NCBI RefSeq assembly: GCF_014203045.1
Contig: NZ_JACHIF010000003.1
Location: 496,001-560,000 of the forward strand
Reading direction: 5' to 3'
Source: Prosthecobacter dejongeii
Lineage (GTDB): Bacteria; Verrucomicrobiota; Verrucomicrobiia; Verrucomicrobiales; Verrucomicrobiaceae
DNA length: 64,000 bases
Part shown: piece after piece, positions 17,933 through 31,429 of the stretch
How the letters are laid out: each line of letters begins with the position of its first letter
Position numbering within the stretch: the stretch's first letter is position 1
The notes under the pieces: generated by a model
The model's input: only the letters and a program-made list of their open reading frames with translations
Told to the model about the DNA's origin: nothing
Database searches by the model: none
Program-made: the position numbers and the translations under genes

Positions 17933-18637
17933 TTATTTGCCCTGTTCCTTTTCCTTGAGCACGAAGTCCAGGTCCTTGCGAAGTTGGGCCTCAAAGTAAT
18001 CTCCAAATTGAGGATCGGCATTCATCAGATCGTACTGCGTGCCACGCACGTGACCTTTGTGATCTACCAGGGCTACGCGCAGGTCGTGAATGTATTTGTC
18101 ATCCGGAGACAGACGGTCAGCCTCAGGGAGATCCTGCACCGGGCGGAATTTCATGAATTGGGTCATGTAGTTGCGCACTTCATCCTTCGTTCCGTTCACA
18201 AACCACCAGGGATCCTTATCTTGCACATTGATACCACGGGCAAATTTCTGCATCATTTCCGGGGTGTCTTCAGGATCCAAAGTGAAGGAGATGAAATGCA
18301 CATTCGGATTATTTTTGTACTCTTCCTGAAGCTTCTTCAGCTTGGCAATAACCCCCGCACAGCCTCGTGGGCAGCGGGTGTAAACCCAGGACACCAGCAG
18401 GACTTTTCCCCGCAATTCATCTAGGTGGACCTTTCGGCCATCGCGCTCTGTCAGTTCCAGATCCCGCTCCAAGCGACCTAGGATGGCCGGGCGATTTTTA
18501 TCTTCGCTCTTGGCCTGCTGCTGCATGGCGATGAGGTAATTGTAGAAAACCACCACGCCAAGTACCGCAATGATGATCGGAATCCAGATGGCCCACGGGG
18601 TGAGGGAAGGTTTGGAGGGAGAAAGGGGCTGGGACAT
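17933..18637 (-). CDS. SCO1/SenC family copper chaperone
   Basis: 234 residues. One N-terminal membrane anchor (about 15-38) is followed by a thioredoxin-like domain with the copper-binding CPRGC (Cys89, Cys93) in WVYTRCPRGCAG and a candidate His184 (KYIHDLRVALVDHKG). SCO proteins deliver copper to the CuA site of cytochrome oxidase subunit II, or keep its cysteines reduced. The position between ctaB and the DUF420 gene, downstream of coxB, supports this. Confidence 0.93.
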   Translation of the reverse strand: MSQPLSPSKPSLTPWAIWIPIIIAVLGVVVFYNYLIAMQQQAKSEDKNRPAILGRLERDLELTERDGRKVHLDELRGKVLLVSWVYTRCPRGCAGVIAKLKKLQEEYKNNPNVHFISFTLDPEDTPEMMQKFARGINVQDKDPWWFVNGTKDEVRNYMTQFMKFRPVQDLPEADRLSPDDKYIHDLRVALVDHKGHVRGTQYDLMNADPQFGDYFEAQLRKDLDFVLKEKEQGK

Positions 18638-18680
18638 AGTGAAAAATCAAATAGGTAGGGCTTTGCGGCAGAGGTCCTCA

Positions 18681-19625
18681 TCAAGCTCGCTTCCAGGCGA
18701 TGGCAGAGATGAAAAGGATGCCGGGCAGATACATCAAGGTGCAAAAGAAAAGCTTACGGGCAGACGCGCGTTCGGGATTCTTTTGGAAATCCACCGCCAG
18801 TTTGCACAGCCAACCTGCCAGGGCCAGAGCTAGCGGCAGGAAAAGCCAGGTGACGACCAGGCCCTGCTGCACCGGATAAAACATCAGCAGAAGCGTGGCG
18901 ATGGAGTAAGCCAAGGCATGTTTGGAGGTACGCACCCCTGCTTCATCATCATTGGCCAGCATGACAAATCCCCCACGGCGGTATTCATCACGATACATCC
19001 AGTTGATGGCCAGGAAGTGAGGGAGCTGCCAAAGGAAGAGTAAAGAGAAAAGGTAAATGGCCCCGGGCTCCCACAAAAGCTCCCAGCGCACGTAGGCGGC
19101 TTCGTGAGGCAATTGACCCGCCGCACCTGCCCAGCCGATCAATGGAGGCAGTGCCCCTGAAACCGCACCCACAAGCGTGTTGGTAGGCGATTGTTTTTTC
19201 AGAGGAGTGTAAATAAAGAGGTAGGTGAAGAGCGTCAGCGCCGTGAGCGCCGCAGCTTCAAAGTTCACTTTGGCGACAAGGTGAATGAGAGCGAAAGAAC
19301 TCAGCAGCCAGCCGATGCCGAATGCGGCACTGGGACTGATGCGGCCTGAGGGCAGGGGACGATCTGCCGTGCGCAGCATGCGCGAATCAGGCTCGATCTC
19401 CATGAGCTGGTTAAACACGGCGGCTCCGAAGGCGGCCAAGCTGCTGCCTAAAATAGTGTGGAAAAGCAGCCATCCATCCAAGTTTGTGCCTACCCGCAGC
19501 CAAAAGCCCACGAAAGTGGTGACGATAACCAAAGCACTCAGCCGGAACTTGGTGAGCACGAGCAAGTCATTCATGCTCCAGGTTTTGGAGGCAGTCTCGG
19601 GGGAGGGGCTAGCGCTTTCAGACAT
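18681..19625 (-). CDS. ctaB: Protohaem IX farnesyltransferase
   Basis: 314-residue UbiA-superfamily membrane prenyltransferase that converts haem B to haem O. Motifs: LTKFRLSALVIVTTFVGF in helix 1, FNQLMEIEPDSRMLRT (first aspartate-rich region), RPLPSG, YTPLKK and LWQLPHFLAINW. In the first motif the usual NxxxDxxxD reads N72...E76...D80, so one metal-binding Asp is Glu. It is 12 bases downstream of ctaA, together supplying haem A for the oxidase in this cluster. Confidence 0.94.
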   Translation of the reverse strand: MSESASPSPETASKTWSMNDLLVLTKFRLSALVIVTTFVGFWLRVGTNLDGWLLFHTILGSSLAAFGAAVFNQLMEIEPDSRMLRTADRPLPSGRISPSAAFGIGWLLSSFALIHLVAKVNFEAAALTALTLFTYLFIYTPLKKQSPTNTLVGAVSGALPPLIGWAGAAGQLPHEAAYVRWELLWEPGAIYLFSLLFLWQLPHFLAINWMYRDEYRRGGFVMLANDDEAGVRTSKHALAYSIATLLLMFYPVQQGLVVTWLFLPLALALAGWLCKLAVDFQKNPERASARKLFFCTLMYLPGILFISAIAWKRA

Positions 19626-19637
19626 TGGGGTGACAAC

Positions 19638-20666
19638 TTAACGCGCTGGTGACGATTCGCCAGAAACACTGACAACCTTTCCTGTGGAACCCAGCAGCCA
19701 GAGAAACAACGCACTGACCAGCAACGAGGACAGACCGATGTGCAGCACCTGAGCGATGCCCACAATACCGATATGGGCCAAGACAACCCCCAGCATCATT
19801 TGACTGAAGATCAGGCCAAAAACACTCCATTCCAACCAACCCACGCGTGTCAGGTGACGCCGACTGAGATGTAGAAAGGCAGCCCCTGCAAAGAGAATGA
19901 GCCAGGAGAAACTGCGGTGGAGGAGATAGACCCAGCTCTGCTCCAGCTCTGTTACCCATTCGCTACGCGGATGTCCAGCATGAGTCTGAGCCAACATATC
20001 CGTTAATTGGCGAACTTGGGAGCCCAGAACGCCTTCAATGGCGATGAGACCGAACAGAATCCAAGCGATCCAGCGTAAACCGTTGTGGACGTGTTGTTTC
20101 CAAGAAAGTTTCCACGGCTGATCATTGGCACTCCAGGCTGTATAGACCAGGACACATTGCAATAGAATAGCTAAAGCCATGTGCACCGTGATGGTGCCAG
20201 GTTTCAGGGCGCTGAAGACCACTTTGGCCCCGAGCCAAGCATTGATCCCCACCAACAAAGCTGAAGCTATCGCAGCAAGGAAAACACGAGTCCGCCCTTT
20301 GCGGTATTCACCAAACGCGGCGATGAATAGAGCGATTGTGGCAATACCGACAGGGATGCTGGTGAGGCGGTTAAAGTATTCGATCCAGGTCGCCGTAGCA
20401 TCGAACTCCGCTTTGATCGTTTCAGGCGTGATCGTCGCGGGATCGCGTCCATGCGCGGCGGCCTTGGCGCGGAATTTCTCGATCTTCAGTTGGCTGAAAT
20501 CAATGTCCTCCGCGCTCGTTGGTGGGACCCAGCAACCATAGCATTTTGGCCAATCCGGGCAACCTAGCCCTGAACCTGTGGCCCGCACCACAGCGCCGAC
20601 AAAGATCAACACTTCGACAGTGATGAAAGCGATGAGGGCGAGTTTTTGAAAGCGGGTCCAGATCAT
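19638..20666 (-). CDS. ctaA: Haem A synthase (COX15/CtaA family)
   Basis: 342 residues from the ATG at 20666; the TTG two codons upstream is an alternative. The N terminus carries FVGAVVRATGSGLGCPDWP, diagnostic of CtaA/COX15, with a cysteine pair close by (CPDWPKCYGCWVPP). Further helices contain the haem-ligand histidines (HMALAILLQC, LLHRSFSWLIL). It oxidises haem O to haem A in the inner membrane. It lies between coxB and ctaB, as expected for an A-type oxidase operon. Confidence 0.93.
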   Translation of the reverse strand: MIWTRFQKLALIAFITVEVLIFVGAVVRATGSGLGCPDWPKCYGCWVPPTSAEDIDFSQLKIEKFRAKAAAHGRDPATITPETIKAEFDATATWIEYFNRLTSIPVGIATIALFIAAFGEYRKGRTRVFLAAIASALLVGINAWLGAKVVFSALKPGTITVHMALAILLQCVLVYTAWSANDQPWKLSWKQHVHNGLRWIAWILFGLIAIEGVLGSQVRQLTDMLAQTHAGHPRSEWVTELEQSWVYLLHRSFSWLILFAGAAFLHLSRRHLTRVGWLEWSVFGLIFSQMMLGVVLAHIGIVGIAQVLHIGLSSLLVSALFLWLLGSTGKVVSVSGESSPAR

Positions 20667-20753
20667 GGTCAATGGAAGTTAGTCAAAAAAATGTCCCGCT
20701 CCCTGATCAGAAGCGGGACATTCCCGAAAAAAACTGAACAGGGATGCGTCGAG

Positions 20754-21551
20754 TTACTTAGCTGCGGTCACAGGTGCAGTGGCTGCTGCAGACTTCGCTG
20801 CGGCACTTGCGGACTGCTCCTTGGCCCACTCATCATATTCTTTGCCATCCATGACTTCCAGCACAGCTCGCATCTGGGCATGACCTGGGCCGCAAAGCTG
20901 ACCACAGATAATATCCCAAGTGCCTGTCTTCACCGGCTTGAACCACATATGAGCTTTCACGCCTGGTATAGCATCCTGGGCGGAACGCATTGGCACGAGA
21001 GCCAGATTATGAATCACATCTTTGCTGCTGACGTCCACAATGACTGGGCGGCCGACAGGGAGTTTCATGGTGCTAGGGCTGACAAAGTCATCCTTACCAT
21101 TCGGGTCCATGAGATCACGGCCAGTCACGTTTGACGGGGTGATTCCCTTCATGCTCCAGGTGCTCAGCATCATGTCATTGCCAGGATACTGGAAGTTCCA
21201 GAGGAATTTCTCGCCAAGGGCGCGGATTTTGATGGTGTCTGGGCTGGTCGGGAAGTCATCAGCTTGGCGGGACCACAGAGGAAAGGCGAAACCCAAGAGA
21301 AGGATGGCTTCCACCACGACCACGCCGATTTCGATGTGGGTGGAGGCATGGCCGCGAACGCCGTGGTAATCCGCAGAGGGATTTTTCGACTTACGGAAAC
21401 GCGTGAAGGCGATCGTGAGGAAGATGGACCAGCCGATGAACAGGGCCAGCATGAACCAATGGACGAAGCCGAGCATGTGATCCACAAGACCGCCGTGCTC
21501 AGAGGCGTTTTGAGTGATGCCGATCCAGGTATTGATGTCAGAGACGCTCAT
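20754..21551 (-). CDS. coxB: Cytochrome c oxidase subunit II (CuA subunit)
   Basis: 265 residues: two transmembrane hairpin helices (about 27-50 and 70-93), then a periplasmic cupredoxin with the CuA ligands His181, Cys216, Cys220, His224 and Met227 in CGQLCGPGHAQM. The residue between the cysteines is Gln218 rather than the Glu of most A-type enzymes, as also seen in ba3-type subunits. The C terminus is an Ala-rich tail with no CxxCH, so this is not a fused caa3-type subunit. A separate cytochrome must donate electrons. It is the last structural oxidase gene, after coxA, coxC and coxD, which is an unusual order. Confidence 0.95.
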   Translation of the reverse strand: MSVSDINTWIGITQNASEHGGLVDHMLGFVHWFMLALFIGWSIFLTIAFTRFRKSKNPSADYHGVRGHASTHIEIGVVVVEAILLLGFAFPLWSRQADDFPTSPDTIKIRALGEKFLWNFQYPGNDMMLSTWSMKGITPSNVTGRDLMDPNGKDDFVSPSTMKLPVGRPVIVDVSSKDVIHNLALVPMRSAQDAIPGVKAHMWFKPVKTGTWDIICGQLCGPGHAQMRAVLEVMDGKEYDEWAKEQSASAAAKSAAATAPVTAAK

Positions 21552-22009: not shown

Positions 22010-22336
22010 TCAGTTGTTGCTGTCGTAGAATCCACTGAACACGAGTGGATCACTGGCAGAGAATACGAACAGAAAGAACAACGCGATGGCGAAGGCTCCT
22101 GTGAAAGCCAAGATTTTGTAAATCAGGGGGCTTTCATGATTCAAGTGCATGAAGATCAGCGCGACAAGACCTGCCTTGAAAGCAGCCAGGATCATGCCCG
22201 CCAGAATGTTCATGCTGTGGGTGGGCAATTCCACATAGGAAAGACCCACTGTAGCGGCGGTGAGGAATGCAAGGGCTCCTCCGACGATGAGGATCTTCTT
22301 GATCGACTTGTGGATTTCTTCAGGACTGTCGGCCAT
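22010..22336 (-). CDS. coxD: Cytochrome c oxidase subunit IV (prokaryotic)
   Basis: 108 residues, three hydrophobic helices. It resembles the prokaryotic COX4 family (cytochrome C oxidase subunit IV): LIVGGALAFLTAATVGLSY, then ILAAFKAGLVALIFMHLNHE, the most characteristic block. It stabilises the oxidase core and has no cofactor. It lies 39 bases downstream of coxC. Confidence 0.9.
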   Translation of the reverse strand: MADSPEEIHKSIKKILIVGGALAFLTAATVGLSYVELPTHSMNILAGMILAAFKAGLVALIFMHLNHESPLIYKILAFTGAFAIALFFLFVFSASDPLVFSGFYDSNN

Positions 22337-22375: not shown

Positions 22376-23788
22376 TTACAGGAGATAAAGAAGTGGGAAC
22401 AGGAAGATCCACACCAAGTCCACAAAGTGCCAGAACAGGCCACCGACTTCCACGCGGTTCGCAAGGCGCTCAGGGTCGTTGCGAAGCATTTTGCCGTCAA
22501 ACAAGAGGAAGTAGGTGAGCACCAGTGCACCGGCCACCACGTGAAGGCCGTGCAGGCCTGTGAGGGTGAAGTAGATAGCGTAGTAGGTGTTCAGTTTCGG
22601 TGTGTAGTTGGAGTAGAAAGCGATGTCTTTCTTTTCCAGCACCACTTTTGGTCCGTGGGCGGCGTGCGCGTCGTGGGATTCACCGTGTTCAGCTTTAGCC
22701 TCAGCTGCATGACCGTCTCCATGGGCACCTTCAGCAGGAGGTGTGGCAGAATGAATGTGCAGGTAAAAAGCTTCTTTCTGGTGCGTGGCACTCTTTTGAG
22801 GATCGCGGTTCGGGTAGTGTTCCTTGAATTCAGCCTGCGCTTCGTCGCGTTTGGCAATGAAGGCCTTCTTCCAACCTTCACCGAGATACTGGCTGTTCCA
22901 GGCCAGGGACTTCTCAGCGTCGGGTACGGAGCGAGTATCCACGCCGTCCACGGTAAGAGTCATCTTGTCGTCAATCAACTTGCCCTTGGCGGTGGTGCCG
23001 TCAGCGAAAGTGATGGCGTCAGAGGAGTAACCGAGAAGCTTGGAGGGCTTGACCTTGAACTTCACGGGCTGGCTAGCGATGATCTTGACCGTCGTGTCAG
23101 GGACAATGTTCAGCTCGCGAGCTTTGTCGGCTTTGCCTTGATCACGCAGTTCCTGACGGCGCTTTTCGAGGGTTTCTTTAGCGGCAGCGACAGTCTTTTT
23201 CTGGAAGGCTTTGAAAGCGGAAGCTTCCAACGAGAACTCCTCGCCAGAATCAAGTTTAAAGGAAGGCAGTTCGCCGTCCACGAAAGGCACGACGTAGCCA
23301 GCAGGATCAGCGTTAACAGCCTTGTTTTCACCCGTGATGGTGAGAGTGAATTCCTTGGCTTCGCCAAACTTGATTTCATAACCCTCGTCCAAGTGACCGG
23401 TAAGGAAGGTGCCATCCGTCAGTTTAACAGCGTAGTGATTGAATTTGGAGTTGTATTCAAAACCCTTAATGACCATGAATGCCATGGCGCAAAGGATTGT
23501 GATGGCCAGATACATCTTGAATTTGCCGATGTTTCGCAGCTTCAAGTTAGCCCAAGCGAGCAAGACCGTCACGGAGGAAAAGATCAGCACCAAGGTGTTG
23601 ATGAATCCCATTGTAACGTTCAGCTCATGCACGGGCCAGTGGTAGTCAGCCCCCACACGCAGGAAGATGTAGGAAGAGAAAAGGCCGCCGAAAAGCATCA
23701 CCTCAGAAGCGAGGAAGAGCCAAATGCCGACTTTGGCATTGTAGAGGCCCGTGTCGGGACGGGCGGTTACGGTATAGGGGATGTCCAT
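22376..23788 (-). CDS. coxC: Cytochrome c oxidase subunit III with ~280-residue insertion
   Basis: 470 residues, about twice the usual length. Residues 1-115 hold three canonical helices (VGIWLFLASEVMLFGGLFSS; GFINTLVLIFSSVTVLLAWA). Residues 400-470 hold the last two (YFTLTGLHGLHVVAGALVL; FWHFVDLVWIFLFPLLYLL). Between them, about residues 117-398 form a hydrophilic insertion absent from normal subunit III. It includes two similar blocks, KLTDGTFLTGHLDEG (122-136) and TFADGTTAKGKLIDD (260-274), a charged helical part (about 190-225) and a His-rich stretch (about 343-380). One uninterrupted frame spans it, so it is not an assembly artefact visible here. Its function is unknown. Confidence 0.93.
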   Translation of the reverse strand: MDIPYTVTARPDTGLYNAKVGIWLFLASEVMLFGGLFSSYIFLRVGADYHWPVHELNVTMGFINTLVLIFSSVTVLLAWANLKLRNIGKFKMYLAITILCAMAFMVIKGFEYNSKFNHYAVKLTDGTFLTGHLDEGYEIKFGEAKEFTLTITGENKAVNADPAGYVVPFVDGELPSFKLDSGEEFSLEASAFKAFQKKTVAAAKETLEKRRQELRDQGKADKARELNIVPDTTVKIIASQPVKFKVKPSKLLGYSSDAITFADGTTAKGKLIDDKMTLTVDGVDTRSVPDAEKSLAWNSQYLGEGWKKAFIAKRDEAQAEFKEHYPNRDPQKSATHQKEAFYLHIHSATPPAEGAHGDGHAAEAKAEHGESHDAHAAHGPKVVLEKKDIAFYSNYTPKLNTYYAIYFTLTGLHGLHVVAGALVLTYFLLFDGKMLRNDPERLANRVEVGGLFWHFVDLVWIFLFPLLYLL

Positions 23789-23834: not shown

Positions 23835-25787
23835 TCAATGATGAGCAACCGGGGCAGAGGTGGAGGCAGGAGCGGTGGCAGCTTTGCCGGGCTCGCTTTC
23901 CCACTGGGGAAGGTAATCCTGGGTGCAGCCAGGAACGCTGTATTCGTAAGGGCCACGAGTGACGATCGGCTCAAATGTGAAGTTACCGTGTGGAGGTGGC
24001 GTTGGAGTCGCCCACTCAAGGGTGGTGCAATGCCAGGGGTTGTCGCTATTGGCTTTCTTGCCAGCTTTGATGCTGAGGAAGACGTTCAGGATGAAAGGCA
24101 CCTGGCCCAGGGCGAGGATGGTTGCGCCAACGGTCATCAGCACGTTAAGACCGAGAAGATTGTTGGGGACGTCCATGCCGAAGATGCTGAAGAAGTCCGA
24201 GGTCAGCTTGGTCACCCAGTTGGATGCGCTGCTGGTCTGCTCGAAATACTTACCACCGTCATACCAGCGGCGGTGGAAGCCACCCATGCCCTGAATGAAC
24301 ATCGGAGCGAAGATCAAGTTCATGCCGACGAGGGAAGGCCAGAAATGCAGCTTGCCCAGGAAGTCACTCATGATGCGACTAGTGATCTTCGGATACCAAT
24401 GATACACACCGGCGAAGAGGGCAAAAATGGTGCCTGGAGCCACAACATAGTGGAAGTGACCGATCACGTAGTAAGTATCGTGTAGAGCCAAGTCAATGAA
24501 GGTGAAAGCGAGCGGCAGACCAGTCAGACCACCGATACCGAACATGGGCAAGAAGGCAGATGCGAACAACATCTGTGGAGTGAACCGGATGGATCCGCCC
24601 CAGAGAGAGATCATCAGTCCGGTCAGAAGGATCACCGACGGCACGGAAATCAGCACGGTAGTGATCTGGAAGTAGGTGGACATCATGGTGCCCATGCCTG
24701 TCAGATACATGTGGTGAGCCCAAACCAAGAAGCTGAGGAAGCCGAGGGTCATAGCCGCATAGACCATGGACTTGTATCCCCAAAGCGGACGACGGGTATT
24801 TGCCGGGATGACTTCCGACAGGATAGCGAAGGCAGGGAGGATCAAAACGTACACTTCTGGGTGAGCCAGGAACCAGAAAAGGTGCTGGTAAAGCAGCGGG
24901 CTACCACCACCGGAGATGTCGAGGTGCTGACCACCTTCCATCAGACCGGTCGGAAGGAAGAAGCTGGAACCAAAGACACGGTCCACAAGCTGGAGAAGAG
25001 CGGCCACTTCCAGAGGAGGGAAGGCCAGAAGGAGGAGGAAGCTGGTGACAAACATGGCCCAGCAGAAGAACGGCATCCGCATCCAGCTCATGCCTTTGGC
25101 ACGAAGGTTGATCACGGTAGTGATGACGTTCACAGACCCCAGAAGAGAGGCCGAGATGTTAAACACCATGGCGGTGAGCCACCAAGTGTGACCGTGTGCC
25201 CAAACGTTCGTGACGGCTAGCGTGGTGGTGGAAGCGAGTGGGGAATACATGGTCCAACCTGTTTGAACCGGACCTGTGCCAACGAAGAAGCTGTAAATCA
25301 TCAGGACGCCGCTGACGAAGAAGAGCCAGAAGCTCCACATGTTGAGTTTCGGAAAGGCCATATCAATCGTGCCAATCTGAAGCGGCATGACGAAATTGAC
25401 GAAACCTGCGAAACCGAGAGGCACGATGCCGAGGAACACCATGATGGTACCGTGCATGGCCCCAAGCATGTTGTACAGTTCACCATTGACGATACCGCCA
25501 GGTGCCCAGCGACCAATAGTTTCATGGAAGAGGGGGCCTAGGACAGGGAGGCTCTCCACAAACAGCAATCCTGGAACAGGCTGGCCTGGGAAGGCAATGC
25601 TCCAGCGCATGAGCAACATGAGGAAGAACCCCAGAAGCAGGAAAAGCAAACCACTGAGTGCGTACTGAATGCCGATGACCTTGTGGTCACAGGAGAAGAT
25701 ATACTTGCCGAAGAATCCCGGCTCGTGGTGGTCATGCGCATGATCGGCTCCGTGGGAGTGATCGTGGGTGGTGGCGGCGGCGCTCAT
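23835..25787 (-). CDS. coxA: Cytochrome c oxidase subunit I, A-type, without the K-channel lysine
   Basis: 650 residues, twelve-helix haem-copper oxidase core. Ligands: His112 (HGTIM) and His446 for the low-spin haem, His444 for haem a3, and His309, His358 and His359 for CuB, with Tyr313 in HPEVY. D-channel residues Asn131, Asp142 and Glu311 are present. At the place where A-type enzymes have PTGVK (K-channel Lys) this protein reads PSVILL, giving Leu387. A His-rich N terminus (residues 8-21) and Pro/Ala-rich C terminus extend the core. A 256-base gap separates it from the upstream cytochrome gene, so it may have its own promoter. Confidence 0.96.
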   Translation of the reverse strand: MSAAATTHDHSHGADHAHDHHEPGFFGKYIFSCDHKVIGIQYALSGLLFLLLGFFLMLLMRWSIAFPGQPVPGLLFVESLPVLGPLFHETIGRWAPGGIVNGELYNMLGAMHGTIMVFLGIVPLGFAGFVNFVMPLQIGTIDMAFPKLNMWSFWLFFVSGVLMIYSFFVGTGPVQTGWTMYSPLASTTTLAVTNVWAHGHTWWLTAMVFNISASLLGSVNVITTVINLRAKGMSWMRMPFFCWAMFVTSFLLLLAFPPLEVAALLQLVDRVFGSSFFLPTGLMEGGQHLDISGGGSPLLYQHLFWFLAHPEVYVLILPAFAILSEVIPANTRRPLWGYKSMVYAAMTLGFLSFLVWAHHMYLTGMGTMMSTYFQITTVLISVPSVILLTGLMISLWGGSIRFTPQMLFASAFLPMFGIGGLTGLPLAFTFIDLALHDTYYVIGHFHYVVAPGTIFALFAGVYHWYPKITSRIMSDFLGKLHFWPSLVGMNLIFAPMFIQGMGGFHRRWYDGGKYFEQTSSASNWVTKLTSDFFSIFGMDVPNNLLGLNVLMTVGATILALGQVPFILNVFLSIKAGKKANSDNPWHCTTLEWATPTPPPHGNFTFEPIVTRGPYEYSVPGCTQDYLPQWESEPGKAATAPASTSAPVAHH

Positions 25788-26043: not shown

Positions 26044-26763
26044 TTACTTAGCGGCAGGGGCTGTGGCGCCCGGGCCTGCTGGGATGTCTCCAGGGACGTT
26101 TTTATCTTTGAAAGCTTCAAGATCAGCCATGGTCCACTGAGTGGCGCGTTTTTCTTCAGCGCGAACTTTTTCAACCATTTCTTTGGTGATCATCGGAGCT
26201 TCATTGCCCCAAGAGTTACGAATGTAAGTCAACACATTGGCGAGGTCAGTCGCGGACATCCCCGCACCGAAGGCCTGCATACCGCCAGGGAAGTTGTAGT
26301 TCTGTCCTTTCACCGTAACCTGGCCGACAAGACCGTGCTGCACGACACGAATCAGACGCTCCGTGCCACCCAAGACCCATTCGGAACCTGCAAGGGGCGG
26401 ATACTGGCCAGCAAGACCTGCACCGTTACCTTGATGGCAACCACCACAGACGGCGTAACCATTGGCGCCTTTTTTCATGGCAGTCTGGAAAGGATCGGCA
26501 GCAGCCACATCACCACCAGCACCACCGCGTGGGTCGGAGGATTTGGAAGCGGTGAATGGGTTGCTGACATCAAAACTATAACCGCCGGTCATCGGGCCAA
26601 GTTGGCCACCGGCGATGATGGCGACGATCATGAACAGGAAGATCACCCACATCGGCGCGGGTTCTGTGCCTGGGGCGAGATCGGCCTTTTCACGCTTCAC
26701 GGCGGCGTGAAGACGGTCGAGATCGTTGCTGTCGGGATTGGGGAAGGAGGAAGGAGCGCTCAT
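26044..26763 (-). CDS. Membrane-anchored monohaem cytochrome c
   Basis: 239 residues. One transmembrane helix (about 38-56) is followed by a class I cytochrome c domain with CGGCH at 106-110, GQYPPLAGSEWV and candidate Met ligands in the FPGGMQAFGAGM stretch. A hydrophilic C-terminal tail of about 50 residues follows. It resembles a one-haem version of CcoP, which normally has two haems. It lies 27 bases after the ccoO-like gene. The likely role is relaying electrons from the CcoO-like or Act subunits towards CuA of CoxB, which has no fused haem. This role is inferred. Confidence 0.88.
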   Translation of the reverse strand: MSAPSSFPNPDSNDLDRLHAAVKREKADLAPGTEPAPMWVIFLFMIVAIIAGGQLGPMTGGYSFDVSNPFTASKSSDPRGGAGGDVAAADPFQTAMKKGANGYAVCGGCHQGNGAGLAGQYPPLAGSEWVLGGTERLIRVVQHGLVGQVTVKGQNYNFPGGMQAFGAGMSATDLANVLTYIRNSWGNEAPMITKEMVEKVRAEEKRATQWTMADLEAFKDKNVPGDIPAGPGATAPAAK

Positions 26764-26790: not shown

Positions 26791-27480
26791 TTATTTCTTG
26801 GCAGCAGCAGCAGGGGCTGCAGCGACAGCGGCGGATTCACCAGGAACAGGGTAATCTTTCTTGAGAGAGAGGAGGTAATCCACCAGAGCTTCGGCTTCTG
26901 GTGTTGGAATCACTTCGTAGCCTTCTTTCACAGCAAATTTCTTCGGCAGTTTCAGCGCTTTGTTCGAAGGCTGCCCCTGTGCGAGACGCTCTGTGTAAAG
27001 GTGAGCGAAGGAAGGCATGTTGGACCAGTCGTGAAGGGACTTGGGAGCAAACAACATCTGGTGGATCTGGCTTCGCTCAGGAGCACGCCAGCCGTAGTTT
27101 GCGAGATCTGGACCGCTGCGCTGGACACCGAGGAAAGCGAAGGGCTCACCCAGATAGTCACGAAGGTTGTTGGAGCGAACCGCCGCAGCCGGGCGGGCTT
27201 CCTGGTCCTGTCCCCAGCCTTTGCGCCAGCCATCGAGAGCGAGCTGTGTGGGGCGGATCATCTGCGTGTGACACTGGACGCAACCTTCACGAGCATAGAC
27301 CAACTGGCCTTGACGGTTGATGGGTGCAGGCGGGAACAGACCTTCGACACCGTCGCGATCCTTATCGTAAGCGATTTGAGTGAGGGCCTGATATTTGATT
27401 GCCGGGACGACAATCAGGCACAGCCAAGGAAGACCAAAGCTGGCGATGAGGGCGAGAATAAAGGTGCGGAACTGGCTCAT
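26791..27480 (-). CDS. CcoO-like monohaem cytochrome c
   Basis: 229 residues with an N-terminal membrane anchor (about 8-28) and the CcoO signature REGCVQCHTQMIRP, haem motif Cys67-Cys70-His71. QRSGPDLANYGWR and the probable Met ligand in NMPSFAHLY also match CcoO, the second subunit of cbb3 oxidases. Its ATG overlaps the stop of the ccoN-like gene by four bases (ATGA), implying coupled translation and a complex of the two. The C terminus is Ala-rich. Because the partner CcoN lacks key ligands, this cytochrome may be an electron-transfer subunit of a non-oxidase complex. Confidence 0.9.
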   Translation of the reverse strand: MSQFRTFILALIASFGLPWLCLIVVPAIKYQALTQIAYDKDRDGVEGLFPPAPINRQGQLVYAREGCVQCHTQMIRPTQLALDGWRKGWGQDQEARPAAAVRSNNLRDYLGEPFAFLGVQRSGPDLANYGWRAPERSQIHQMLFAPKSLHDWSNMPSFAHLYTERLAQGQPSNKALKLPKKFAVKEGYEVIPTPEAEALVDYLLSLKKDYPVPGESAAVAAAPAAAAKK

Positions 27481-28955
27481 GCGTGGGCGGCGTGGGGAAG
27501 GGCTTCTTCGTGATCATGCTCAAGCAGCGTCGGGGCAGAGCTGCGGCGGCCAAGACCGGCGACCATGAGCATGAGATGGATCAGGAACCAAACATTGGAC
27601 CAGGTGATAAGGCCCCAGGCGATAGCGCGAGCGATGATGTAAGGACGAAGGTTCAGCGTGAGCTGCATGAAATCCTGATCCCACATTTCAGGGGAGTTTA
27701 GATCCCCACCTTGCTGGGCACCAGCGACTAGACTGGTTACGACGATCGCGCCGATACCATAAACGGAGAACCAGAAGTGGTTGCGGATGAGGCGAACAGA
27801 GAGCCATTCACAGCCAGTGAGGCGAGGAACGATGTAATAAATGGCTCCGAAGATGGTCATGCTAAAGAAGCCATAAACTGCGACGATCTGGAAACCATAC
27901 CAGGCCTGTGTGAACTGGAGAGTAGCACCGGTGGAGAAGTTGGAGATCAGGGCCAAGATGGCACCGCTCACTGGATAGAAAAGGGCTCCGAAGAAGACAA
28001 AGCGCAAGGTTGGGCTGGAGGCAACCATGCTGTGCTTGCCCAGGGTGGTGAGGTGATGATTAAGACCGACCACACCGACAGGAATCAAGAGAAGAACTCC
28101 CGTAGCAGCGCCGATGGCTGGCATCCAAGCAGGAAGAGGGCCGCCCATGTAATGCTGCATACCTGTCCAACCGCCGAGGACTGCCAGGAGCCAGAACCCA
28201 ATTTGAGAAAGCTGAGAGCTAGCGATGGGTTGGCCGGTGATTTTAGGGATGAAGTAATAAGCTGCACCGATCGCCACAGGAGCGAAGAACAGCAAGATCA
28301 TCGTGTGAACGTACCAAGCATTGATACCAGCACCCAGTGCACCTAGACCAGGAAGGCAATGAAGGGCGACGTTGGCAGTGACGAAAATCCAGGGGAACCA
28401 GAAACAAGCACCAATGATGTACCAGGTGCTCACCATGAAACCTTCTGGGCGGAAAGCACGGCCAAACATGAATACCATGGGCCAGGCAAAGGCGAGAAAG
28501 CTAATTAAAAGCACTGGCCAGATGAAGGACGGCATTTCCAACCACTGCATCGAGGTGCTTTTGCCGAGAAGAATCGCAACGAGACCGATGGTGACAGCGA
28601 TGTTCCAGAAAATAGCAGCCACATAAAGGACGCTTTTGCCCGTGCGAAGCTCCTGGCCCGAACGACGAGCCATGAGCCAAAGCATGGCACCTAGGCCAGC
28701 CTGAACACCCCAACCATAAACAAGAGCATTGATATGGGTAGGTTGAAGGCGGCCGTATTGAAGCACACTGCAAGCGCCGAGGAAATCGGGAGCGAATTGC
28801 TTGATGGCAGCAAGGACGCCCAAAATGGTGGAAGCCATCAACCAGAAGGCGCCATTGAGGAAGAGGAAGAGCACCGGGCCTTTCACCGACTTGTCAATCG
28901 CCGCGCGGCGAATGTTGTCAGCGAGGGTGTCCGTGGATGCTGGGGAGGTCTGCAT
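27477..28955 (-). CDS. CcoN-like haem-copper oxidase subunit I homologue with missing ligand histidines
   Basis: 492 residues from ATG 28955 (a TTG five codons earlier is possible). About twelve helices align without gaps to cbb3 subunit I by eye: RLQPTHINALVYGWG (His74, haem b ligand) and WYVHTMI (His217, CuB). The helix with the CuB His-His pair reads GMQHYM (Gln267-His268). The helix that should hold the H-x-H ligands of haem b3 and haem b reads AWYGFQIVAV, with Phe355 and Ile357 at the ligand positions. Conserved LPxW, SxPTLRF and FGAIYYIVPRL anchors fix the register. It is therefore probably not a conventional oxygen reductase. It is coupled to the ccoO-like gene. Confidence 0.88.
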   Translation of the reverse strand: MQTSPASTDTLADNIRRAAIDKSVKGPVLFLFLNGAFWLMASTILGVLAAIKQFAPDFLGACSVLQYGRLQPTHINALVYGWGVQAGLGAMLWLMARRSGQELRTGKSVLYVAAIFWNIAVTIGLVAILLGKSTSMQWLEMPSFIWPVLLISFLAFAWPMVFMFGRAFRPEGFMVSTWYIIGACFWFPWIFVTANVALHCLPGLGALGAGINAWYVHTMILLFFAPVAIGAAYYFIPKITGQPIASSQLSQIGFWLLAVLGGWTGMQHYMGGPLPAWMPAIGAATGVLLLIPVGVVGLNHHLTTLGKHSMVASSPTLRFVFFGALFYPVSGAILALISNFSTGATLQFTQAWYGFQIVAVYGFFSMTIFGAIYYIVPRLTGCEWLSVRLIRNHFWFSVYGIGAIVVTSLVAGAQQGGDLNSPEMWDQDFMQLTLNLRPYIIARAIAWGLITWSNVWFLIHLMLMVAGLGRRSSAPTLLEHDHEEALPHAAHA

Positions 28956-28976: not shown

Positions 28977-29360
28977 TCAGTTCGCAGGAGGAGTAACTGC
29001 TGGGGCGGCGGGAGCCGGAGCAGCAGGGGCCGGAGCGGCCGCCTGTTTCAGTTGAGTGGGAGAACCAGGGACAACCTGAGTGCTAGCGCCAGCGGGCTTA
29101 GCTTTCAGGGTTTCGAGGGTCTTGGCGAAGATAGCGGCTTTTTTCTCAGAATCCTTGAGGCCCATCTTGGTGATGAGTTCGTTTTGGGCCTTGAGAATTT
29201 CTTCCTTGTTAGCCAGGCGTTCAGGGGCACGTGGATCTTCAGCACCCTGGGTGGCAAAGGAAGCCTGAATGACGTAAAACAGCACGGCAAAGCTGGCGAA
29301 TGCGCCAAGCACCCAAAGGAAGGTAGCTCCGGCTTTCGAAGGGGTAGCAATCGAAGACAT
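28977..29360 (-). CDS. Small single-helix protein between actF and the ccoN-like gene
   Basis: 127 residues with one N-terminal helix (ATFLWVLGAFASFAVLFYVI), a charged probable helix (about 45-85) and a Pro/Ala-rich tail. No cofactor motif. No family recognised. It starts eight bases after actF stops and ends about 20 bases before the ccoN-like start, so it is cotranscribed with both. It may link the Act and Cco-like parts, but that is only positional reasoning. Confidence 0.7.
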   Translation of the reverse strand: MSSIATPSKAGATFLWVLGAFASFAVLFYVIQASFATQGAEDPRAPERLANKEEILKAQNELITKMGLKDSEKKAAIFAKTLETLKAKPAGASTQVVPGSPTQLKQAAAPAPAAPAPAAPAVTPPAN

Positions 29361-29368
29361 GAAAAGAA

Positions 29369-30745
29369 TCAGTTGATGACGTTGGCGGACTCGAGAAGGC
29401 GCGGGTCGCGGCAGGGGTAGAGACTGTAACGGGAAAGGCTGCGGAGGAAGACGAAGCCCATGGTGCCAACAACAGCAAACAAGGCAACCACGTCACCCAC
29501 CCATGCACCATCCACCCACCAGCCGAGCCCCAAAGAAGGGCCACGTTCTGGGATGACGTTCCAGTAGATGTCCACCAAGTGCATGAAGAGAATCCAAAGG
29601 CAGATCAAGCATACTGCGACGGGGTTCTTCTTGCGAGGCTGGGAGAGAAGGAGGACGAAAGGACCGATGAAGTGGCCCACTACGATGAAGATGGACACCC
29701 AGCGCCAGCCTTCGGTGTTACGGGTCAGGTAGAAGCGTGTTTCTTCCGTGATGTTGGCGTACCAGATGAGGAAATACTGGCTGAAGGCGATGTAAGCCCA
29801 AAACACCGTGAAGGCGAAGAGCAGCTTGCCCATGAGGTGATAATGTTCTTCGGTGACGACTTGCTTCATGTAACCGAGGCCTTTGAGCCAGGTCACGAGG
29901 AGGATTGTGAGGGCCATGGAGGCCCAAGCGCAACCAGCGAAGATATAAACACCCCACATGGTGGAGAACCAAGAGTAGTCGAGGGTCATCAACCAATCCA
30001 CGGCTGCAAAGGTGACCGTCAGGGCGTAGAAGAGAAGCCAGCGGCAGGAGAAAGTGCGGGATTTGATGGTGTGGGTGATGTCACCGTCCTGATCCTGCAT
30101 GACCGACTTCTTGCGAAGCGTGCGAGCGATGTGCCAGAGGATGAAGAAGTAAAAAGCGAAGCGGAAATACCAAGCGTCCACATTCAGGTAGCCATACTTC
30201 TCTACCAGGATGTGGAGATGTGGATTGCTGAGGGAATTGTGATGAAGCTGATCCTTGATGGAGTGTGGAGCGTGGTGCTCATCGCCTTCTTCGTGTGCAG
30301 GGGCAGCGGCGGTTTCAGCGTGCTTGTCAGCGCCGGCGTGTTCAGACGCCACAAGCTGGGTTTTAGCCTCGCGGTGGTGATTCATCCACTCATACAGATG
30401 CGTCTGCACTTGAGGGAAGAGGAGGGGGATGCCCAGGAAAGCGAGCGGGAGGACCATGTTGGCCAATTGCTCCCAAAGACGACGGACGGCGACACCCCAG
30501 CCTGAGTTGGAGGCGCTGTGGAGGAGGATCCAGAAGCAGCCACCGCAGACGAAGGTGAAAGCAAAGAAGAAGGCGAAGAGCCAGCTGTAAGCAAAAACAT
30601 CCGGCTTGGCAAAAAACATGTAGGCAGAGCCTGCGATGCCCAGCAAGCCAGCAGCCCCGAAGGCGCTGATAAGCTTGCCGCCTTTGGCGGTTTCGAATTT
30701 CTCACCGCCCGGAGGCAGGTCGTTGAATGTGACGTGGTGACTCAT
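29369..30745 (-). CDS. actF: Alternative complex III membrane subunit ActF
   Basis: 458-residue polytopic protein, about ten helices. It matches the ActF quinone-associated subunit of alternative complex III: VDWLMTLDYSWFSTMWGVY, HLMGKLLFAFTVFWAYIAFS, QYFLIWYANITEETRFY and FIVVGHFIGPFVLLLS. A His/Ala/Glu-rich hydrophilic insert (about 125-165) is atypical in length. ActF and ActC are NrfD/PsrC relatives; only this one is present here. It lies 18 bases after actE. Transfer of quinol electrons to cytochrome is known for the whole complex, but the catalytic and haem subunits ActA-D are not encoded nearby. Confidence 0.9.
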   Translation of the reverse strand: MSHHVTFNDLPPGGEKFETAKGGKLISAFGAAGLLGIAGSAYMFFAKPDVFAYSWLFAFFFAFTFVCGGCFWILLHSASNSGWGVAVRRLWEQLANMVLPLAFLGIPLLFPQVQTHLYEWMNHHREAKTQLVASEHAGADKHAETAAAPAHEEGDEHHAPHSIKDQLHHNSLSNPHLHILVEKYGYLNVDAWYFRFAFYFFILWHIARTLRKKSVMQDQDGDITHTIKSRTFSCRWLLFYALTVTFAAVDWLMTLDYSWFSTMWGVYIFAGCAWASMALTILLVTWLKGLGYMKQVVTEEHYHLMGKLLFAFTVFWAYIAFSQYFLIWYANITEETRFYLTRNTEGWRWVSIFIVVGHFIGPFVLLLSQPRKKNPVAVCLICLWILFMHLVDIYWNVIPERGPSLGLGWWVDGAWVGDVVALFAVVGTMGFVFLRSLSRYSLYPCRDPRLLESANVIN

Positions 30746-30763: not shown

Positions 30764-31429
30764 TTACTGGACGGACACGTTGTTTTCCTTCACCGCCACC
30801 TGCATGGCGCGGATGTAGGCCACAATGGCCCAGCGATCTTGAACGGTGATGTTGCCACCGTAGGGGCCCATCAGTCCTTTGCCGTTCGTGATCACATCGT
30901 AAATGGCACCGTCAGCGCGGTAAGCGCCAGCATTGGCAGGGTCGGTGCTGCCGTTCTGGTGAAGATTGAAGGCGGTCATGATGCCGTACTTCGAGGTGAT
31001 GCCCTTGCCGTTTCCGGAGGCACCGTGACAGACGGCGCAATAGATATTGAACTGACGCTCGCCGCGCTCAATGAGGGCTTTATTGAGCGTCACTTCCTGG
31101 GGAAGGCCGTCGCCATAATAGTCACCGATTTTTCCAGTGTTATAATAGTCGAGCCCGTTGGTGAAGCCATACTGCGGCGGCTTGAAATCAGGGGCGGAAG
31201 CAGGCTTGGCCGGGATTTCGAAACCCACTGGGACCGTACCTTTGACGGGGCGACGTGCACCGAGGCCATCGGCAAAGAAATCACTCTTGGCTTGATACTT
31301 CACTTTGGCCTGGTGGTCCATGTCTTGGAAGATTTCCAGGGGCGGCAATTCAGACTTGCTGCCACGTGTGCCAAAGGCAGCGACGACAATCGCGGCAACA
31401 AAGAGGTAGCTGAGGAAGAAATATTTCAT
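30764..31429 (-). CDS. actE: Alternative complex III monohaem cytochrome ActE
   Basis: 221 residues. An N-terminal hydrophobic signal or anchor (about 3-20) is followed by a region with PPLEIFQDMDHQAKVKYQ, typical of ActE, then a cytochrome c domain with CAVCH at 131-135 in NIYCAVCHGASGNGKG and the candidate Met ligand in GLMGPYGGNI. It is the first gene of the minus-strand respiratory run. In complete act operons it follows actA-D; here upstream DNA holds unrelated genes. Confidence 0.9.
   Translation of the reverse strand: MKYFFLSYLFVAAIVVAAFGTRGSKSELPPLEIFQDMDHQAKVKYQAKSDFFADGLGARRPVKGTVPVGFEIPAKPASAPDFKPPQYGFTNGLDYYNTGKIGDYYGDGLPQEVTLNKALIERGERQFNIYCAVCHGASGNGKGITSKYGIMTAFNLHQNGSTDPANAGAYRADGAIYDVITNGKGLMGPYGGNITVQDRWAIVAYIRAMQVAVKENNVSVQ

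Follow-up and report, generated by a model that had tools for sequence, protein, structure and literature searches.

The window analyzed here, a 64,000-nucleotide stretch of the Prosthecobacter dejongeii genome (contig NZ_JACHIF010000003.1, positions 496,001 to 560,000), carries on its minus strand a gene for a homologue of CcoN, subunit I of cbb3-type oxidases, in which three of the six histidines that bind haem and copper are replaced. We refer to the product as pseudo-CcoN, or N. The minus-strand order of genes is ActE, ActF (both of alternative complex III, ACIII), a small one-helix protein, N, a CcoO-like cytochrome, a cytochrome c, coxA, coxC, coxD, coxB and genes of ctaA, ctaB and SCO1 type:

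30764..31429, minus strand: ActE, monohaem cytochrome c of ACIII (6f0k_E, E 8.6e-27)
29369..30745, minus strand: ActF, membrane subunit of ACIII (6f0k_F, E 7.6e-56)
28977..29360, minus strand: small one-helix protein between ActF and N, family unassigned
27477..28955, minus strand: N, ligand-poor CcoN homologue, 492 aa (PF00115, AlphaFold2 model, match to 3mk7, three of six ligand His)
26791..27480, minus strand: CcoO-like membrane-anchored monohaem cytochrome c (PF02433 FixO, E 2.9e-17; 3mk7_B, E 1.5e-12)
26044..26763, minus strand: monohaem cytochrome c in the CcoP position, with an N-terminal hydrophobic segment (PF00034)
23835..25787, minus strand: CoxA, A-type oxidase subunit I (PF00115, E 6.4e-125; TIGR02891, 536 bits, cut-off 671)
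22376..23788, minus strand: CoxC (subunit III), 470 aa (PF00510)
22010..22336, minus strand: CoxD, caa3-type subunit IV (TIGR02229, above cut-off)
20754..21551, minus strand: CoxB with a CuA-type domain (PF00116, TIGR02866)
17933..20672, minus strand: CtaA-, CtaB- (UbiA) and SCO1-type oxidase assembly genes (PF02628, PF01040, PF02630)

The minus-strand frame 28955..27477 encodes the 492 residues of N; the plus-strand frame is interrupted by stops. Pfam COX1 (PF00115) matches N with an E value of 4.9e-46, and phmmer aligns it with CcoN of Pseudomonas stutzeri (3mk7 chain A). The AlphaFold2 model (mean pLDDT 90.3, pTM 0.91) superimposes on 3mk7 over 450 residues at 2.3 Å (VIA-align, Z 45.1). The top five VIA-align rows are cbb3 subunit I throughout (Z 43.7-45.1), and the NorB chains 4xyd and 3o0r score under the CcoN chains (Z 39.9 and 38.1). 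N thus has the haem-copper subunit I fold and is a clear CcoN homologue, as a sequence-only reading of the locus had claimed. Its score against NCBIfam TIGR00780 (ccoN), 121 bits, does not reach the equivalog cut-off of 583; three ACIII-linked members of the same family with intact ligands likewise remain under it (225-246 bits), and falling short of it is therefore not diagnostic by itself.

Ligand positions were mapped by phmmer alignment to 3mk7 chain A and by MAFFT alignment with four canonical fused CcoNO proteins, one from the same genome and three from order-level relatives. In P. stutzeri CcoN, we take H60 and H347 to bind low-spin haem b, H345 to bind haem b3, and H207, H257 and H258 to bind CuB; Tyr251 is cross-linked to a CuB ligand in cbb3. 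His74 of N corresponds to H60, His217 to H207, Gln267-His268 to H257-H258, Phe355 to H345 and Ile357 to H347, exactly the residues named by the sequence-only reading. Hence N retains three of the six ligand histidines (H60, H207 and H258), with Gln, Phe and Ile at H257, H345 and H347, and has Gly261 in place of Tyr251. Residues 350-380 contain no histidine, in agreement with the earlier statement that this helix holds no other. NorB shares the His ligands of haem b3 and of the low-spin haem with the oxidases, and with Phe and Ile at H345 and H347, N lacks those as well. A second CcoN-type gene elsewhere in the genome, a 794-aa frame, has all ligands. The numbering of the CuB ligands of P. stutzeri CcoN is given in an excerpt of PMC3578206.

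The N gene is coupled by an ATGA overlap to the gene of the CcoO-like protein, which matches FixO and carries a CVQCH motif, both the overlap and the motif having been described correctly from the sequence, as well as a putative axial Met in SNMP. The cytochrome in the CcoP position is monohaem rather than dihaem (TIGR00782, ccoP, 25.7 bits; cut-off 180), and among solved structures it matches cytochrome-c-fused nitrite reductases and Thermus c552 best.

Proteins of the N family, ligand-poor or intact, sit between ActF and a CcoO-like cytochrome across the class Verrucomicrobiae. Among close and order-level genomes, 50 of 56 gave a match (in G019 and G038 no better than the match of the canonical protein), and the six without one share a single genus code, probably that of Akkermansia. 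Five loci from records titled Akkermansia muciniphila (L058, L081, L093, L101 and L104) do carry the family, and presumed Akkermansia genomes in the class-wide draw are without it; these records are probably mislabelled bins. That draw was even and comprised 189 genomes at least 85 percent complete, of which 122 contain N at E<=1e-60. ActF was detected in 145; setting aside nine presumed-Akkermansia hits (E 1e-12 to 1e-17) and G106 (3e-18) leaves 135 genomes with strong ActF, and N is present in 131 of them (121 from the 122, and ten more at weaker E). Of 176 loci whose upstream sequence extends to 3.5 kb or more, 173 have ActF upstream in the same orientation; the exceptions are L093, L130 and L229. 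This linkage, which the sequence-only reading had proposed to look for, is what would be expected of a subunit of an ACIII assembly. The best 80 of 299 relatives are all titled as members of Verrucomicrobiota, a set that did not reach other phyla.

The small protein between ActF and N gave no Pfam or NCBIfam match, and a small open reading frame with a transmembrane (TM)-like segment occupies its position in 170 of 186 loci, making it a candidate additional ACIII or CcoQ-like subunit. In the P. dejongeii genome the ACIII genes are split, with actABCD (L041 5514-11724) about 220 kb from actEF on the same contig; in 8 of 33 related loci (L042-L088, more than 8 kb upstream) actABCD is likewise not beside actEF.

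Ligand state could be read in 109 of the 122 genomes of the draw, 13 being left out, and proved bimodal. Five or six histidines are present in 33 genomes (six in 32, five in 1) and none to three in 76 (three in 2, two in 8, one in 38, zero in 28); no genome has four. The ten members found at weaker E are all ligand-poor, one of them truncated. The same gap separates 213 distinct sequences of at least 380 aa and 30 bits (166 ligand-poor, 35 intact ACIII-linked and 12 canonical or outgroup, the ligand-poor set being over-sampled in Verrucomicrobiales): 166 have 0-3 of the six histidines, 47 have 5-6 and none has four. An H-x-H motif near the site occurs in all 47 ligand-rich sequences and in one of the 166 ligand-poor ones. 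A misalignment hiding the motif is disfavoured by its absence near the site in the other 165, and the alignments of N place no His pair at these positions. Tyr251 is kept in 1 and H345 in 2 of the 166. Among 85 representatives of ligand-poor clusters, H60 is retained in 23, H207 in 7, H257 in 7, H258 in 12, H345 in 2 and H347 in 12. Thus the earlier description of N as lacking half of the ligands holds for this genus; outside it the remaining histidines are mostly lost too, and the family as a whole has lost most of them. Because the three histidines kept in N are not conserved, there is no residual metal site common to the family.

Across 21 intact representatives, 153 columns reach 90 percent conservation. 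Ligand-poor members have mostly lost 40 of these, all 7 cofactor columns included (hypergeometric 5.5e-5, a descriptive value and not a test, because six of these columns define the groups). Intact and ligand-poor members share 70 conserved columns. Outside the 40 lost ones, 28 columns common to both groups differ from two canonical CcoN proteins, which is consistent with a shared non-catalytic constraint. A single ACIII-linked CcoN, at L221 (G156), has only H207 changed (to Arg), which may mark the onset of decay, unless it is an assembly error. L133 and L134, the second CcoN of G077 and G135, represent a fully liganded CcoN-like type of 546 and 618 aa with a CcoO-like gene; act genes were not seen in their fetched flanks.

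The partner cytochromes keep their haem motif. A homology search of 193 loci placed a CcoO-like gene at the expected site in 166 (32 intact, 134 ligand-poor; 27 gave none), and all 166 encode CXXCH. When the nearest downstream open reading frame with CXXCH was taken instead, one was present in 199 of 199 loci, with a motif aligning with that of the window, a count that selects by the motif itself and excludes 2 contig-edge loci. The axial-Met column holds Met in 35/35 intact and 139/164 ligand-poor loci. The third gene, for the cytochrome c, was found in 190 of 193 loci, with CXXCH in 189; the remaining one, at L099, is possibly frameshifted.

Further downstream, CoxA is the likely electron acceptor in this genome. 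CoxB matches COX2 and cupredoxin domains only, with no cytochrome c domain, and the COX3 matches of CoxC are split into two stretches by a long insertion inside subunit III.

Since fully liganded members occupy the same operon slot, ligand loss is secondary and repeated. CcoN trees were built without the ligand columns and their neighbours; 2 changes of state are needed on the tree of 111 rows and 3 on a tree of 50 rows picked after the larger one had been seen. Uniting the 28 ligand-poor rows of the latter costs 109 log units (approximately unbiased test, p-AU 0.0002). The tree of concatenated ActB, ActC and ActF (97 rows) requires 16 changes, and a losses-only count on the ACIII-gene tree with a midpoint root gives 22, 21 and 19 with branches under support 0, 80 and 95 collapsed. 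The disagreement reflects long-branch attraction in CcoN, gene replacement, or both. We conclude that ligands were lost two to three times, and likely many more times than that. A history in which 2-3 losses were followed by spread of the ligand-poor gene through replacement at the act locus, rather than some 16-22 independent losses, would explain why the CcoN trees need so few changes compared with the ACIII-gene tree, and would be compatible with a scaffold role of N as proposed below. We regard it as rather unlikely: attraction between long branches may group the ligand-poor rows of the CcoN trees, both states are found under genus code g46 (G197 intact, L225; G087 lost, L172), and intact and ligand-poor rows are sisters on the ACIII tree (L192/L168 at support 100, L178/L137 at 99).

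Purifying selection on N persists. By the Nei-Gojobori method, 398 pairs from 49 of 73 loci with an N dS of 0.3-1.2 (294-395 pairs for the other genes) gave a median dN/dS of 0.18 for N, compared with 0.168 for CcoO, 0.16 for the cytochrome c, 0.15 for ActE, 0.20 for ActF, 0.158 for CoxA and 0.19 for CoxB, values that are rough because dS is high.

Other oxidases were surveyed in 60 chosen genomes (35 ligand-poor, 25 intact), with bd-type oxidases outside the survey. All 35 ligand-poor genomes contain a further PF00115 gene at E<=1e-100 among the matches listed. In three of the 25 intact genomes (G057, G062 and G186), the ACIII-linked gene is the sole PF00115 gene at 1e-15 among the matches listed. 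The idea that ligand loss followed the arrival of cox genes was not borne out, as intact loci with coxA exist (L190, L220, L222, L226 and L230) and many ligand-poor loci have none in the fetched flank.

Methanotrophs provide a case in which N may have been taken for an oxidase. PmoA is encoded in all nine tested genomes of family f12 (Methylacidiphilaceae). Their nine N proteins keep one ligand of six (H258), with neither HH nor H-x-H anywhere in the sequence, and N is followed by CcoO, a cytochrome c hit and coxA. Two more genomes of this family, G112 and G209 (sequence cut off at G209), are alike; G061 has ActF and no N. In G098, taken as Kam1, the only CcoN homologue found is ligand-poor, and its other PF00115 genes at 1e-15 are presumably two A-type-like, one B-type-like and one NorB-like, a typing made partly by score. 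Neither of two candidates for a second cbb3 there held up: a 467-aa PF00115 match without an NCBIfam match follows what we take to be a NorC-like gene, and a 561-aa match is best to CtaD/CoxA (96 bits), with only 18.7 bits for the cbb3 type. The act genes lie upstream of N in eight of the nine loci. In the ninth, L130 (G084:C1:962443-971958), ActF is about 7 kb from N and no act gene occurs in the 7-kb upstream flank; strain IT6 has a nos cluster within its ACIII genes, according to an excerpt of PMC11102522, and the arrangement could be the same. Excerpts of several reports describe a cbb3 oxidase here: co-located with ACIII genes and with a high affinity fitting the physiology (PMC6688271), adjacent to ACIII in verrucomicrobial methanotrophs (PMC8498564), beside ACIII together with aa3 genes in strain IT6 (PMC11102522), or simply listed for the group (PMC10205796). 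In the nine genomes N occupies the position that such reports assign to an ACIII-linked cbb3 oxidase, and some of these oxidases appear to be the ligand-poor N.

Since most haem and copper ligands are gone, N probably survives as a scaffold. We consider it likely that N is a catalytically dead CcoN kept as a cofactor-poor membrane scaffold that holds the CcoO- and CcoP-like cytochromes between ACIII and an oxidase. N would fold normally without the residues for haem b3, a normal low-spin haem b or CuB. Its gene would belong to an ACIII superoperon of actABCDEF, the small TM protein, N, the CcoO-like protein and the cytochrome c, with cox genes next in part of the lineages. ACIII would oxidise menaquinol, and electrons would pass from ActA/ActE to the membrane-anchored CcoO-like and CcoP-like cytochromes, positioned by N, and onward to an oxidase such as the neighbouring aa3, whose CoxB has no cytochrome domain detected. 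Once another oxidase performed the oxygen chemistry, the ligands of N would have been free to decay, more than once. The computations show the homology and fold, the lost ligands, the operon, the retained haem motif of the partner, more than one loss and purifying selection; that N lacks cofactors and that a physical supercomplex with this electron route is formed we infer. A bolder proposal, which we put forward tentatively, is a Verrucomicrobiota ACIII-N-O-P supercomplex in which the cbb3 core was turned about twenty times independently into a scaffold without haem that connects ACIII to other oxidases, and in which even intact members may mainly bridge.

The suggestion of the sequence-only reading that the family kept the CcoN-CcoO scaffold and lost conventional oxygen reduction is supported, the loss being very probable; its observation of a ligand-deficient CcoN stands in full. 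Taken as a whole, its interpretation is supported in part. As to an electron-transfer or quinol module, we expect the neighbouring c-type cytochromes, and not N, to carry the electrons. Nothing favouring a quinol site in N was found, although no dedicated search was made; ActF and ActB have their matches among solved subunits of ACIII, which oxidises quinol.

Several observations weigh against a scaffold that bridges ACIII and oxidase. The strongest is that in Flavobacterium johnsoniae ACIII reaches aa3 even without ActE, and no CcoN-like part is named in an excerpt of PMC8552683, so a bridge is not required everywhere. Four of the 135 genomes (G061, G065, G073 and G082) have ActF without N (none at 1e-5). 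The axial-Met column of the CcoO-like cytochrome is non-Met in 25 of 164 ligand-poor loci. Many ligand-poor loci lack coxA in the fetched flank, so they either use a different acceptor or rely on one encoded at another site. The sole-oxidase contrast (0/35 vs 3/25) is only suggestive, the dN/dS values are rough as stated, and contact of N with CcoO and ACIII is read from gene order. Finally, 86 of the 166 ligand-poor sequences (23/85 representatives) still have H60, more than the overall His frequency of 2 percent would predict, so some members may still bind something there.

This last point, together with the three histidines kept in some members of this genus, is what speaks for N still binding metal or haem through new or remaining ligands (His74, His217 and His268) with a redox or sensory function of its own. 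We think this improbable, because the retained set varies by lineage, H345 and Tyr251 are nearly always lost, and the nine Methylacidiphilaceae members are without HH or H-x-H; no replacement ligand column was noticed, without a systematic search for one. Still less probable is a redox-free ion-translocating subunit, conformationally coupled to ACIII like the antiporter-like subunits of complex I. The polar positions conserved in intact members and equal by offset to T215, S240 and Y251 of P. stutzeri, which presumably lie on the proton path, are mostly lost, against which stand the tight linkage to ACIII (131/135) and the debate over energy conservation by ACIII noted in an excerpt of PMC8498564. 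That N is a functionless, decaying relic carried along by a useful operon would fit the missing ligands and the long branches of several ligand-poor lineages, and is to our judgment the least probable of these explanations. Nearly all fetched ligand-poor loci have open frames of about 460-600 aa, and shorter frames, so far as could be observed, come from truncated contigs, which disfavours a pseudogene; a dN/dS of 0.18, the class-wide presence of N and the 70 columns kept between intact and ligand-poor members argue in the same direction. The scaffold remains our preferred explanation.

Haem-copper subunit I is used to indicate oxygen respiration, and cbb3 to indicate a high oxygen affinity; here a CcoN look-alike without the residues for this chemistry is spread across a class. 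We recognised no report of the ligand loss in the open-access literature searched, and earlier notice in Refojo 2010 is possible. With a single operon slot filled in some genomes by a liganded and in others by a ligand-poor form of one enzyme, the family is a natural experiment in which a bridging role could be tested independently of oxygen chemistry.

Respiratory complexes contain other enzyme folds that persist as architecture without cofactors, namely the molybdopterin-type domain of ActB and the core proteins of mitochondrial complex III. N resembles these as a dead enzyme fold retained as structure, and differs in that the fold is that of a terminal oxidase and that liganded and ligand-poor forms coexist within one class. 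With P. stutzeri CcoN it shares the fold over 450 residues, recognisable anchors and a coupled CcoO gene; it lacks H345, H347, H257 and Tyr251, stands in an ACIII context instead of ccoNOQP, and belongs to a ligand-poor family in which no cofactor ligand is conserved. Another close counterpart is the intact verrucomicrobial ACIII-linked C-type oxidase (e.g., L177, L176 and L226), with the same slot, cytochromes and family-specific residues. Those members keep all six ligands and Tyr251 and could be true oxidases; an excerpt of PMC8498564 places ACIII-linked C-type oxidases in Opitutaceae and methanotrophs, crediting Refojo 2010. The ACIII-aa3 supercomplex of F. johnsoniae, as excerpted from PMC8552683, likewise has ACIII feeding an A-type oxidase, with homologues of actE and actF, and in that excerpt no CcoN/CcoO pair is mentioned, whereas at the Prosthecobacter locus such a pair stands between the two sets of genes.

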